Assembly (NCBI RefSeq): GCF_900106765.1
Contig: NZ_FNNG01000006.1
Location: forward strand, 1-64,000
DNA: 64,000 nt
Source: Tepidimicrobium xylanilyticum
GTDB lineage: Bacteria > Bacillota > Clostridia > Tissierellales > Tepidimicrobiaceae
Direction of reading: 5' to 3'
The notes below the pieces were generated by a model. That model saw only the letters and a program-made list of their open reading frames with translations. It searched no databases and was not told the origin of the DNA. The position numbers were made by a program, and so were the translations under genes. Of this stretch, positions 369 to 22,720 are shown in pieces (positions within the stretch are counted from its first letter, which is position 1; each line of letters starts with the position of its first letter).

Positions 369-962
369 GTGTTAGAGGTTGATAAGCAATATACTATATC
401 GGAAGTTGCTGAAATAACAGGTTATCCTCCCCATGTACTAAGATACTATGAAAAGGAATTTGAGCTAAAAATTCCTAGAAATGAATCTAACCATAGATTT
501 TATACCTACTTAGAAATAGAACAATTACAATATATAAAATCTCTTCAAGATAAAGGTTTTAGTAATAAACAAATCAAATTAATTCTTAAATCTCCAGAAA
601 TAGTGGTAGACACAAATGAAGAAACTGCATTAACTAGCGTAAATCCTCCAGCAATAATAGATGCTATAGAAATAGCTAAAGAAATCAGCTTAAACTTACG
701 AGAATCTTTTTTTGATGAACTTGTTAACGTGTTAAATGATAACAATGGATATAATGTAAAGCTTATAAATGAATTAATGGATGAAATCATAGCATTAAAA
801 AACGAATTAAATAGCAAGGAAAGAGATGTATTAATTTGTGAAAATGCAAAGTTAAAAATGAAGCTTAAGGAAAAATCCTATGAGATTGCAGGTTTAAAAG
901 AAAGAATTAAGAGAATGGAAAATAGCAGAGGGTTTTTACAACGGTTATTTAAAGGCAAATAA
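369..962 (+). CDS. MerR-family transcriptional regulator
   Basis: A DNA-binding regulator of about 197 residues. The N-terminus has the MerR winged-helix signature (YTISEVAEITGYPPHVLRYY, then an NHRFYTYLEIEQLQYIKSL wing/helix region). A long charged coiled coil fills residues ~120-190 and probably dimerises the protein. There is no Cys-rich metal site or recognisable drug-binding domain, so the effector is unknown. I chose the GTG at 369 because GAAAGGGG at 354-361 is well spaced for it; an in-frame TTG at 348 lies upstream of that ribosome site. It stands alone, downstream of the IS3 remnant and on the same strand. Confidence 0.8.
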   Translation: MLEVDKQYTISEVAEITGYPPHVLRYYEKEFELKIPRNESNHRFYTYLEIEQLQYIKSLQDKGFSNKQIKLILKSPEIVVDTNEETALTSVNPPAIIDAIEIAKEISLNLRESFFDELVNVLNDNNGYNVKLINELMDEIIALKNELNSKERDVLICENAKLKMKLKEKSYEIAGLKERIKRMENSRGFLQRLFKGK

Positions 963-18234: not shown

Positions 18235-18891
18235 TTAATTAGATGTTAACTTCTCTACAACGCTCTCAGTCCCTTTCATCCCAACTCTATAAGCATTTGT
18301 AGCAATGGAAGAAAGGTGATTGTTATGGGTAACCATTATAATCTGTCTTTCGAACAATTCTGAGGTTTGTTTTAAAAAATCAGCTACATTAAAAATATAC
18401 TCTTCACTTACGTGTTTAGCAGGCTCGTCTAAAATTAAAGGGCCATCAATTCTAGGTTTATGAATCTGCAAAAAAGCTATACGTAATGCCAAAGAAATGA
18501 TATCAACTACTCCTCCCCCTCTAGATAATTCTGGTTTGTTTTTTATTACAGTATCGTCATGTTTAGTGACAACAAAAAACTCAGCATTTGGTTTTCCATA
18601 CAATTCTTCAATTTCTATTTTAAATTCAATATTACTTTCAAAAATATACTGTAAACAATTAGTCACTAAGGATTCTACTTGTATTTTTGCTTGATTTCTC
18701 GCAAACTCTGAAGTTTTTTGCAATAAAAGGCTAGCCTTTTCTATTAGGTCCATCTCTTTTTTAATATCCTCTATTATCTTGTTATGCTCTTTTATTTGTT
18801 CAAGTATTTTTTCCTTTTTACCTAATTCTTTAGAAATATAAGATTCTATATTAGAAATGTAATTATCAAGATCATCATAACTATTTATCAT
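18235..18891 (-). CDS. SbcC/Rad50-like ATPase, C-terminal half encoded separately
   Basis: A 218-aa protein that looks like the C-terminal lobe of an ABC/SMC-type ATPase. A short coiled coil (~residues 8-75) is followed by an ABC signature-like ELSRGGGVVDIISLALRIA (121-139), Walker B LILDEP (152-157), a D-loop-like region and the H-loop His189 (VTHNN). It has no Walker A, which lies in the gene two positions upstream (19155-20597). The two proteins should assemble into one composite ATPase. It is last in the recA-sbcD-like cluster, 4 nt after the small coiled-coil gene. The assignment rests on motifs; the split itself is directly seen. Confidence 0.8.
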   Translation of the reverse strand: MINSYDDLDNYISNIESYISKELGKKEKILEQIKEHNKIIEDIKKEMDLIEKASLLLQKTSEFARNQAKIQVESLVTNCLQYIFESNIEFKIEIEELYGKPNAEFFVVTKHDDTVIKNKPELSRGGGVVDIISLALRIAFLQIHKPRIDGPLILDEPAKHVSEEYIFNVADFLKQTSELFERQIIMVTHNNHLSSIATNAYRVGMKGTESVVEKLTSN

Positions 18892-18895
18892 AATA

Positions 18896-19144
18896 TCACT
18901 TCTTTTCTAAAATATCCTTTGGTAATAATTGATTTGCTTCCTTAAATAATTCATCAATTTCAGCTTGTAATTTCTTTATCTCTTCTTCTAAATTCTCTGG
19001 GTTAACCCCTAATTCTTCAAGCTCCTTAATCAATTCTTGTTTCTGGTTATTTAGCTGTTCCAGTCTTGCTTCTGCCTTATATTTTAAGCTCTTTGCTCTC
19101 TCCAAATTATTTCTTAAATTATTAAGTTCCTTCTCGTAATCCAT
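18896..19144 (-). CDS. Small coiled-coil protein in the split Rad50-like operon
   Basis: An 82-aa, highly charged protein, almost entirely predicted heptad coiled coil (ELNNLRNNLERAKSLKYKAE, then EEEIKKLQAEIDELFKEA), with a break at LGVNPENL that suggests a helical hairpin. It has no cysteine and no catalytic motif. The ribosome site AGGAGGG is strong. It sits between the N- and C-terminal ATPase halves with only 4-10 nt gaps, so it may be a third subunit or the detached ascending arm of a Rad50 coil. No function is established. Confidence 0.7.
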   Translation of the reverse strand: MDYEKELNNLRNNLERAKSLKYKAEARLEQLNNQKQELIKELEELGVNPENLEEEIKKLQAEIDELFKEANQLLPKDILEKK

Positions 19145-19154
19145 AGTTTCCCTC

Positions 19155-20597
19155 CTATCTAAAGTTTTCGATTATCTCTTCAATTTTATTTCTATCTATA
19201 CTACTAAAACATAGAGGACAAACCTTCAGTTCTGTCAACAAGGTTTTATAACGATTTAATTGAGAATTGAGTCTTTCTTCTAATTCTTTTAAATTTTTTT
19301 CAGTATCTAGTTTAGTTATATTAATTTTATTATATCTATCATAACAATCTAGTAAAGACTTTAATCTACTATATTTATTTTCTAGCGTATCTTTTAACAT
19401 CAATAACCTATCTATTTGAGATAGTTTGTCTAAGAAATTTTCACCTATGGCTATGCTTTTGTTAATGCTATCTAATTTAGCCTTTGTGCTCATCAGCTGT
19501 GTCATTTTTTCGTAGCTACTTTTAGCTATTTCAATATTAAATCTGACTTTTTCTATTTCCCTTAAGAATTTCAATATCTGGTTATTATATATTATCTTCT
19601 TATTAGCTTCCTTTAAAAGTTTGCTAATTCTATCCAATTTGATCATTCTGTCAATATATGAAGATAAAAGGTTATTTATTTCTGAACATCTGTCAACGCC
19701 CTTTAATCCTTGGATTATAGCTTTATTGATGGCGATATCTCTATTAATAGCTTCTAATCTACTATACTTATTAAAAATAGAGTTAAAGTTATTAATTTTA
19801 TTACTTAATTTCCTTTCAATCTCTTTCATTTCATCTATATTTTTTAATTTATTTAAGTATTCCTTTATAAATAAAATCTCCTCACTTATTTCTTTTAAAC
19901 TATCAGATATTTCAATTAGTCTATTTAACCTTACTTGTGAGTTATAAATGCTACTCTTTATTTTGATTAAATTATCCTTAATTTCAATTAATGAATCTAA
20001 ATAATCATACTCAGCTAATTCGATTTGCAATTTCTTCAACATCTCTTCTAAATTTTTCTTTTTAAGATTCAAGTTTCTTATATCTTTTAATGTATCTTTA
20101 ATAGCATCATCTATAATATGAACTCCAACTAGCCTGCCAATGGCATTAGCTTTAGCAGAGTTTTTTTCTGAAAGCAAAAAGGGTCCTTCTAATTGTTCAG
20201 ATATATTAATTAAATTGGATTGATCCCCATCTAACGATATTTTTCTCATCGATATTTGATCGATTATTTCTTTAGGAACTTTGGTTCCAAATCCTTCAAA
20301 TATGGTTTTCTCTCCTTGACTATTATATAGATAATAAGAATTTTTGCTTTTACTCCTATACCTTTTAATTTTTGTATTATCGCTAAAAATAACAGTTACA
20401 CTACAGTCCTTTTCTCCTTCTCTAATGAAAAAATCTCCAGATGGCTCATTGAATAAAGCCCATCTTAGTCCTCTGATGATTGCTGTTTTCCCATGATCTG
20501 AAGGACCTACTATTACATTTAGGTATGGATCTAATTCTATTTCCGTATATTTGTGAGATTGAAAATTTTCCAATATTATTTTCTTTATATATTTCAT
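19155..20597 (-). CDS. SbcC/Rad50-like ATPase, N-terminal half with terminal Cys hook
   Basis: A 480-aa N-terminal lobe of an SMC/Rad50-type ATPase. It begins KKIILENFQSHKYTEIELD, with Walker A GPSDHGKT at 31-38 and a Q-loop region near EQLEGPFLL (~135). Helical, degenerate-repeat sequence occupies ~165-455. A zinc-hook-like CPLC lies at ~460-463, only 17 residues from the end. It has no signature motif or Walker B; these are in the gene at 18235-18891. Such FQSHK-type ATPases also occur in phage recombination modules (from memory). It starts 2 nt after the SbcD-like gene. Confidence 0.82.
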   Translation of the reverse strand: MKYIKKIILENFQSHKYTEIELDPYLNVIVGPSDHGKTAIIRGLRWALFNEPSGDFFIREGEKDCSVTVIFSDNTKIKRYRSKSKNSYYLYNSQGEKTIFEGFGTKVPKEIIDQISMRKISLDGDQSNLINISEQLEGPFLLSEKNSAKANAIGRLVGVHIIDDAIKDTLKDIRNLNLKKKNLEEMLKKLQIELAEYDYLDSLIEIKDNLIKIKSSIYNSQVRLNRLIEISDSLKEISEEILFIKEYLNKLKNIDEMKEIERKLSNKINNFNSIFNKYSRLEAINRDIAINKAIIQGLKGVDRCSEINNLLSSYIDRMIKLDRISKLLKEANKKIIYNNQILKFLREIEKVRFNIEIAKSSYEKMTQLMSTKAKLDSINKSIAIGENFLDKLSQIDRLLMLKDTLENKYSRLKSLLDCYDRYNKINITKLDTEKNLKELEERLNSQLNRYKTLLTELKVCPLCFSSIDRNKIEEIIENFR

Positions 20598-20599
20598 TT

Positions 20600-21586
20600 T
20601 TATATCTCATCTCCTATATTTTTCATCTGAGAATGAGCTATTCTTCTTAATGCTTCCTTTTTTACTTCCTCAGATACTCCCTCTGCATTTGAAACTTCAA
20701 TTAATATTTCGTTGATTTCTAATTTATCAAAGTTTATAGCTGCATCTATTGACTGCTTAAATTCAAATAACCTTTCGCTCTTAAAAATATGATTTTCTAT
20801 TTCATCTCTATCTAATATCTTTTCTCCTTTTTCAGCAGTTTTTAATCCAACAAGCTCTACTTTTATCGAATCATCCAAATTAATTATGGCCACTTTAGGA
20901 GTTCGTTCTATTTCTGATAAACTATTTGTAATTCTAATTAAACTACCAGGATTGATGAAGTACTTCCCATTAACCTCTACTACCCCAAATCCGGAATGAT
21001 AATGGCCTGATAAAGTAACATGAGCCTTTGTATCTTTGATGTCATCTATTAATGTATAAGGAATCCCTTTAATAAATGGTTTATTTAATAACATACCATG
21101 AACCATATGTATTGCATAATTTACATCCTTTGGTATATCCGTTATTATATATTTATCGCTATTATTTCCATTATCTATGTCATATGTATAAGATTGCCCA
21201 GTCAACTGCACCTTTATCCCATTCTTACATAAGTAGACAGGTTCATCTCTCTGTACTATTTTAACTACACTTAAAGCATCCAAAAGACCTAGCATCGTTC
21301 TGTTAACAGTATTAGGATTATGTCCATAGATATCGTGATTCCCGCAAACAATATATATAGGAACTTTAAATTCATTTAATATGGAAGCAAAATTGCCTAC
21401 TATAGAGACTGAAATATCAGGCCTATCAAATAGATCGCCGCCATGTAACACATAATCAATATTATAATGTTTTATTATCTTTATAATTTCCATTAACTTT
21501 CTTTCTAATGTTTCAACAATGTTGTCCTTCCTACTTTTTGGAGTTGTACCTCTAATGTGAGTATCTGTTAAAAAAAGTAATTTCAA
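20600..21586 (-). CDS. SbcD/Mre11-like metallophosphoesterase (DNA repair nuclease)
   Basis: A 328-aa calcineurin-like phosphoesterase with all five metal-site motifs: FLTDTHIRG, GGDLFDRPD, CGNHDIYG, VHGM and SGHYHSGF. The capping/C-terminal region is shorter and different from standard SbcD. Its placement directly before the Rad50-like ATPase halves and after recA makes an Mre11 role likely. I prefer the TTG at 21586 (AAGGAGTG upstream, protein begins KLLFLTDTH). A TTG at 21604 with AGGAGG upstream is also possible and adds six residues; that ribosome site lies in the hairpin at the recA end. Confidence 0.82.
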   Translation of the reverse strand: MKLLFLTDTHIRGTTPKSRKDNIVETLERKLMEIIKIIKHYNIDYVLHGGDLFDRPDISVSIVGNFASILNEFKVPIYIVCGNHDIYGHNPNTVNRTMLGLLDALSVVKIVQRDEPVYLCKNGIKVQLTGQSYTYDIDNGNNSDKYIITDIPKDVNYAIHMVHGMLLNKPFIKGIPYTLIDDIKDTKAHVTLSGHYHSGFGVVEVNGKYFINPGSLIRITNSLSEIERTPKVAIINLDDSIKVELVGLKTAEKGEKILDRDEIENHIFKSERLFEFKQSIDAAINFDKLEINEILIEVSNAEGVSEEVKKEALRRIAHSQMKNIGDEI

Positions 21587-21604
21587 AACTAACACTCCTT
21601 GCAA

Positions 21605-21629
21605 ATAAACCTCCTAAAAGGAGGTTTAT
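21605..21629 (-). terminator. Hairpin at the end of recA, overlapping a ribosome site of the sbcD-like gene
   Basis: Perfect 10-bp stem ATAAACCTCC / GGAGGTTTAT with a 5-nt loop, starting at the recA stop codon. No T-run follows on the minus strand. The 3' arm contains AGGAGG, so it may attenuate or mask translation of the next gene rather than end transcription. Confidence 0.55.
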
Positions 21630-22663
21630 TATTCTTTATTATCATTGTCACTATCTTTCTTTTCCTCATTTATTAAACCAAATTTTTCTCTAATCTTTCT
21701 TTCAATTTCCAAAGCAACACTAGGATTCTCTCTTAAAAATTCTTTAGCATTCTCTCTACCTTGACCTAGTTTCTGTTCTCCATAGCTATACCAAGAACCA
21801 GATTTGCTTATCACTTCTGCTGTAACACCAGTATCTAATATATTACCTTCCTTTGAAATTCCTAAACCATACATTATGTCAAATTCTGCTTGTTTAAAAG
21901 GAGGTGCTACTTTATTTTTCACAACCTTTACCCTTGTTCTATTACCAATAACATCTTCACCTTGCTTTATGGAATCTACTCTTCTAACGTCTAATCGAAT
22001 ACTAGAATAAAATTTAAGAGCTCTGCCTCCTGTAGTAGTTTCAGGATTACCAAACATAACCCCAACTTTTTCCCTTAATTGATTTATAAATATTATAATG
22101 GCATTTGATTTATTGATAGCTCCAGTCAATTTCCTCAAAGCTTGGGACATTAATCTTGCTTGCAGCCCCACGTGACTATCCCCCATTTCTCCCTCTATCT
22201 CCGCTTTTGGGACTAAAGCAGCAACTGAGTCCACAACTATTATATCCACAGCACCGCTCCTTACTAAAGCTTCTGTAATTTCTAATGCTTGTTCTCCTGT
22301 ATCAGGCTGAGATACTATGAGATTTTCAACATCTACGCCTAATTTTTTTGCATAACTTGGATCTAATGCATGTTCTGCATCAATAAAAGCTGCTATCCCG
22401 CCCATTTTTTGTGCTTCCGCAACAACATGCAATGCAACTGTAGTTTTTCCTGAAGATTCCGGACCAAATATTTCAATAATTCTACCTCTTGGTAAACCTC
22501 CAATTCCTAATGCAATATCTAATTCCAATGAACCCGTTGGAATGACTTCCATCCTTTCAGTCTTAGTGTCGCCTAATCTCATTATAGAACCTTTGCCAAA
22601 CTGTTTTTCAATTTGGCTAATAGCTACATCTAAAGCTTTATTTCTCTCATTTTTGTTAACCAT
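21629..22663 (-). CDS. recA: Recombinase RecA
   Basis: ATP-dependent strand-exchange protein and co-protease that triggers LexA cleavage. Walker A GPESSGKT, the Walker B-like [10 protein letters not shown], loop L1/L2 segments ([30 protein letters not shown]) and the C-terminal KIREKFGL are all present. 344 aa with an acidic tail is normal. ATG start. Its promoter carries a perfect LexA box at 22709-22720. The downstream Mre11/Rad50-like genes follow in the same direction, 40 nt away. Confidence 0.97.
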
Positions 22664-22708: not shown

Positions 22709-22720
22709 GAACATTAGTTC
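22709..22720. promoter_or_regulatory. LexA box upstream of recA
   Basis: GAAC-ATTA-GTTC, a perfect GAACN4GTTC operator, 8 bp downstream of the recA -10 element. Confidence 0.88.

Follow-up and report, generated by a model that had tools for sequence, protein, structure and literature searches.

Rad50 and SMC proteins are single chains, in which a coil that folds back on itself connects the two halves of the ATPase. The window (the whole stretch of 64,000 nt of Tepidimicrobium xylanilyticum DNA that was analysed) raises the question of whether nature can do without that covalent connection, because directly 3′ of recA it carries genes that look like one Rad50/SbcC-type ATPase in three pieces, beside an Mre11-like nuclease. 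Is this a working enzyme, and if so, what has become of SbcCD in the organisms that have it? We consider it probable that this is a genuine three-piece Rad50 that works with the adjacent nuclease in place of SbcCD, its physical assembly and nuclease activity being inferred. Searches of the open-access literature on split Rad50 or SbcC, on SbcCD in Clostridia and on genes downstream of recA brought up no earlier description of it.

Genes and control elements around recA

The gaps MPE/N, N/M and M/C (Table 1) are only 2, 10 and 4 nt, and for MPE a TTG start preceded by AAGGAG is preferable to the more distal one. Inspection of the proteins upheld what a sequence-only reading had made of these genes, including the small coil gene between N and C and its short gaps. 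N has a Walker A (GPSDHGKT), a Q-loop with an invariant Q135 and a CPLC hook 21 residues from its C-terminus, and lacks a Walker B; C has the signature SRGGG, the Walker B LILDEP and the H-loop VTH, and lacks a Walker A. Between them, N and C therefore have every motif of an ABC head, from Walker A and Q-loop (N) to signature, Walker B and H-loop (C). Across the approximately 30 genomes compared these residues show little or no variation, and the CPxC hook occurs in every aligned N protein. MPE has the full set of five phosphoesterase motifs, with D8, H10, D51, N83/H84, H163, H195 and H197 invariant across relatives. No Rfam family matched anywhere in the window.

Table 1. Features of the recA-side operon in the window.
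Feature	Position	Strand	Evidence or remark
LexA-type operator GAACTAATGTTC	22709..22720	(-)	perfect box, 57 nt upstream of recA start
recA	21629..22663	(-)	Pfam RecA E 2e-147
Hairpin AATAAACCTCC-TTTT-AGGAGGTTTATT, recA/MPE junction	21604..21630	(-)	perfect, 12 bp; terminator-like or attenuator-like
MPE, Mre11/SbcD-like metallophosphoesterase	20600..21604, likely true start 21586	(-)	Pfam Metallophos E 1e-13; Mre11 1ii7 E 3e-8
N, Rad50 N-lobe, rod and terminal CPLC zinc-hook motif, 480 aa	19155..20597	(-)	AAA_23 E 5e-16
M, coiled-coil protein, 82 aa, constant size	18896..19144	(-)	phrog_18563 E 2e-9
C, Rad50 C-lobe with N-terminal coil, 218 aa	18235..18891	(-)	phrog_15167 E 2e-59

The arrangement is not peculiar to one genome. 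A survey of what follows recA found the order recA-MPE-N-M-C-rny in 27 of the 27 relatives' loci whose contig reaches far enough, with rimO-pgsA-cinA upstream. The set is present in [Clostridium] ultunense, Tissierella, Schnuerera, Anaerosalibacter, Soehngenia, Peptoniphilus, Thermosediminibacter, Tepidanaerobacter and Natroniella; most of these named loci have the same order, and rny has been relocated in several Peptoniphilus loci. MPE, N, M and C are all under strong purifying selection, with dN/dS values (where dS is finite) of 0.05-0.09, 0.12-0.18, 0.03-0.05 and 0.04-0.09, respectively, and of 0.04-0.06 for RecA. Their protein distances follow those of RecA (r 0.80-0.85) and still co-vary mutually once RecA has been removed (0.61-0.79).

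Some loci have peculiarities of their own. In a same-genus metagenome assembly (L052, 3307-4302; also L089) MPE lies in two open frames, through sequencing error or real loss; one genome (G060) has a diverged second copy of the set, with a 604-aa N and a 414-aa MPE, which is not beside recA and is likely mobile or prophage (L083); and several relatives have two copies of spoVS behind rny (L086, 9521 and 10690; also L087 and L101).

Are the genes induced by DNA damage, as their place after recA had suggested? The LexA-type box lies directly behind a promoter-like element of recA, and 40 of 63 related loci have a GAACN4GTTC box in the 300 nt before recA, so SOS induction of MPE-N-M-C is plausible. 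It has not been shown, and it may be attenuated, as a conserved hairpin separates recA from MPE, a junction in which we found no LexA box. The hairpin, with its CCTCC and GGAGG arms, recurs in most Tissierellales loci (L086-L130), and it is absent from the Peptoniphilus and Thermosediminibacter types, in which the gap is 0-30 nt. Its CCTCC arm resembles the 16S rRNA anti-Shine-Dalgarno sequence, and the element could be a terminator, an attenuator or a translational switch.

The two halves of the head, fused and apart

If N and C are halves of one ATPase, each should find its own half of Rad50, and this is what profile searches of a structure database returned. The N profile matches Rad50 N-halves (1ii8_A, E 5e-10; 1f2t_A, E 2e-8) and, at its C-terminal end, the Rad50 zinc hooks 1l8d (E 7e-4) and 6zff (E 6e-4); the C profile matches Rad50 C-halves (3qkr_B, E 2e-8; 1f2t_B, E 2e-6), and MPE matches Mre11. 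Separate PHROG families match N (phrog_16465, E 1e-65), M and C, and so the pieces have already been catalogued as phage families but, as far as we could find, not as one split Rad50.

The expectation that structure prediction would bring the lobes together was met only in part. N, M and C of locus L140 were given to AlphaFold2 as one chain with ordinary alignment rows, two stop codons being read through (TGA as G, TAG as S) purely as a modelling device, with no claim of read-through. This pseudo-chain is predicted to fold as one Rad50/SMC head (mean pLDDT 66.9) that matches Rad50 3av0_B with Z 26.0 over 348 residues, spanning model residues 1-792. The model shows only that the lobes are compatible; pairing in trans remains unproven, since the artificial joining biases the result. 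A two-chain Rad50 head does have a laboratory precedent, because in 1f2t (P. furiosus) and 1ii8 the head was deposited as two chains, a form that is a laboratory construct.

Further evidence comes from natural fusions. The three Rad50 genes are separate in all chromosomal loci read, with the exception of those of one family of Bacillota (f68), in which the C-lobe lies inside a longer frame in all eight genomes. Three fully read genes from this family encode proteins of 684-700 aa in which MPE is followed by lobe I and lobe II, with neither rod nor hook, and a fourth, of 783 aa, has the identical domain order; two of the eight genomes have a separate MPE and both lobes in one protein of 373-375 aa, and for the remaining two only the frame length (690-695 aa) is available. 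Closely behind the coil-less MPE-N-C gene there is, on a reading by eye, an addB-like gene in L212, L213 and L214, which may point to a functional link. In the phage loci L166, L168 and L169 MPE is fused to N, and C is a separate gene. L168, a 218,948-bp viral contig that we take to be Bacillus phage 0305phi8-36, also has M as a separate gene. An Mre11/Rad50 fusion has been reported from Bacillus phage 0305phi8-36, with one segment of the P-loop NTPase unobserved in the phage protein (PMC3175470). A separate C gene would explain the missing segment, and the passages of PMC3175470 available to us contain no description of a separate C-lobe or of a split chromosomal operon. Other viral contigs have long insertions between N and M; by eye, the one in L182 resembles a DNA polymerase III alpha-type gene and the one in L187 looks cytosine methyltransferase-like.

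Could N, M and C instead be a split SMC-like ATPase with another role, such as DNA tethering or RecN/RecF-like loading of RecA, to which MPE is only loosely linked? SMC heads fit the joined model at least as well as Rad50 does (Z 29.2 vs 26.0), the fold search cannot tell the two apart, and both the adjacency to recA and a rod unlike that of SbcC are in keeping with such a role. We nevertheless think it unlikely, for MPE forms one protein with N in phages and with N-C in f68, it is a relative of Mre11 with all the nuclease motifs, and the hook matches Rad50 hooks.

The phage and prophage relatives, together with weak matches to the Lamassu protein LmuB, also suggest a module distantly like Lamassu, either a mobile anti-phage defence or one derived from phages. 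We rejected this very improbable reading because whole lineages have the set at a fixed chromosomal locus by recA, its distances track those of RecA, and the LmuB matches lie mainly over generic ATPase parts. Whether the split set arose in phages, a possibility already raised by the sequence-only reading, or in their hosts is undecided: phages have relatives of it, yet the chromosomal set tracks recA.

Do the pieces stay together when their genes do not? In Acetivibrio mesophilus, Herbivorax and relatives C stands alone between folD and rny and MPE-N-M precedes rimO-pgsA, and N has been retained in nine of the ten Acetivibrionales genomes with an unlinked C, the tenth being a 1.6-Mb assembly. 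SbcC was found in none of the nine genomes that retain both N and C. That an ancestral single sbcC was split by mutations and is now drifting, as the complementary and adjacent lobes might suggest, can be dismissed with near certainty on grounds of selection and conservation, since the same three-piece split, with its own starts, constant sizes and dN/dS of 0.03-0.18, recurs in dozens of genera and the relative frames of the genes vary between genomes. The very short gaps could likewise hint that programmed frameshifting yields a single N-M-C protein, which is refuted by the unlinked C gene of the Acetivibrionales and fits neither the differing N/M/C frame offsets among loci nor the phages that place an AP2-domain gene and others between N and M.

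A rod of 47-residue repeats

The three-piece Rad50 differs from its single-chain counterparts in its rod as well as in its genes. In the rod of N the sequence recurs every 47 residues (profile autocorrelation 0.48 and 0.45 at lags 47 and 94, as against a maximum of 0.18 in 500 heptad-block shuffles), a periodicity that we did not find in clostridial SbcC rods. In the AlphaFold2 model of N from the window (mean pLDDT 79), helices of approximately 44 residues are interrupted where one repeat meets the next, at 254, 301, 348 and 395. Walker A-to-hook distances centre on 422 residues, and the outliers differ from this value by about whole repeats: 375-376 (minus one), 324 (approximately minus two), 466-474 (approximately plus one) and 516-523 (approximately plus two). 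Herbivorax N has recent, near-identical repeat copies. M, and in C the distance from start to signature, are nearly constant across these length classes, although the rare classes contain few sequences.

The sequence-only reading had taken over the simple antiparallel coil of Rad50, and that part of it did not survive. Since N changes by repeats while M and C stay constant, and since the ascending coil (N) has approximately 300 residues and the descending one (M plus C) approximately 160, the rod cannot be a classical antiparallel two-strand coil from end to end. What might replace it? One possibility, which we put forward tentatively and would not rate as the likelier outcome, is a modular, self-contained rod in which the variable repeats of N pair mutually or fold on themselves and M and C serve merely to close tip and base, the separable C-lobe being a control point for assembly of the head.

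Distribution relative to SbcC and the proposed complex

In a sample of 398 genomes of the phylum, C-lobe matches occurred in 64 genomes and SbcC in 173, and only three combined the two, against an expectation of 27.8 (Fisher p 7e-14). Two of the three overlaps are phage-type copies with MPE behind C (G419 and G160), and the third (G230) is a short N-terminal stretch only, model positions 3-113, in a 650-aa frame. Among 61 relatives one genome had both systems (p 1.6e-10), and none did when the window's own family was left out (p 2e-7). An apparent co-occurrence with SbcC was also seen in G018, an assembly of 80% completeness that has its piece of sbcC on a contig of 3.5 kb. The genomes do not count as independent observations, and kinship inflates the significance of this exclusion. 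Three families (f4, f7 and f44) each hold both types, in different genomes, from which it follows that the swap between split set and SbcC has occurred repeatedly. As 164 of the 398 genomes have neither, the function itself must be dispensable.

No full-length sbcC was found in the window's own genome, where TIGR00618 matched only SMC proteins, although even single-chain clostridial SbcC proteins fall below its curated cut-off. The sequence-only reading would have been refuted by a full-length sbcC elsewhere together with decay of the genes at the recA locus, and neither is the case. The only other SbcCD-like pair found in this genome is a YhaO/YhaN-like one of 366 and 809 aa on another contig (L085, 1369-4895), which could share work with the split set. 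It appears that the split set takes the place of SbcCD and fills an apparent gap, in that many Clostridia which seemed to lack SbcC, Peptoniphilus species included, have the split set instead.

How might such an enzyme be built? Lobe I and its Walker A would come from N, together with the cysteines of the zinc hook and most of the rod; lobe II, which bears the signature, Walker B and H-loop, would come from C; and M, a small obligate coil, probably belongs to the returning strand, close to the hook or the base, a placement that is inferred. Neither lobe alone can hydrolyse ATP and N and C must consequently pair in trans, each head being, to judge from the complementary motifs and the fusions, one N with one C. 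By analogy with Mre11 and SbcCD the nuclease would comprise two such heads and two MPE subunits, and zinc bound by the cysteines at the end of N may join two rods. SbcCD acts on hairpins, palindromes or blocked ends (PMC6265447). From this and from the mutual exclusion we infer that the complex may open such structures and feed RecA. The three-piece Rad50 with its nuclease, as first read from the DNA, is thus supported by operon order, co-retention of unlinked genes, fusions, half-profiles and purifying selection. That an Mre11-type complex forms is itself inferred, only indirectly from operon order and fusions, with no direct data on interaction or activity. A natural, lineage-wide three-piece Rad50, sometimes without coils, lets the roles of the covalent coil, of its length and of the hook be asked directly.

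Known systems resemble the split set only in part. LmuB of Lamassu (best match E 4e-14) is limited to N residues 3-114, with C at 2e-9 and no match over the whole protein; the neighbours of the split set are recA, the Mre11-like MPE and rny. YhaO/YhaN is similarly a phosphoesterase with an AAA_23 ATPase, but in the pair in the window's genome the ATPase is a single chain of 809 aa and of AAA_27 type. In Bacillus phage vB_BboS-125 gp32, gp34 and gp35, annotated as exonuclease, hypothetical protein and ATPase, correspond to N, M and C and keep their order, although an AP2-domain gene lies between N and M and MPE is downstream, the MPE gene falling in a gap of the phage annotation (L012, 8989-9969). 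The best matches of solved structure are the archaeal Rad50-Mre11 complexes of P. furiosus and M. jannaschii, N corresponding to 1f2t_A and C to 1f2t_B. Natural archaeal Rad50 is one chain with an antiparallel coil, and the split set fails both the single polypeptide and the equal ascending and descending coils expected of Rad50/SbcC. With SbcCD of E. coli and B. subtilis it shares the ABC lobes, a CxxC hook and an Mre11-type nuclease partner, and in the phylum its distribution is almost perfectly complementary to that of SbcCD, from which it differs in an ATPase of three polypeptides, a hook at a chain end, a rod of 47-residue repeats and a signature that reads SRGGG rather than LSGGE.
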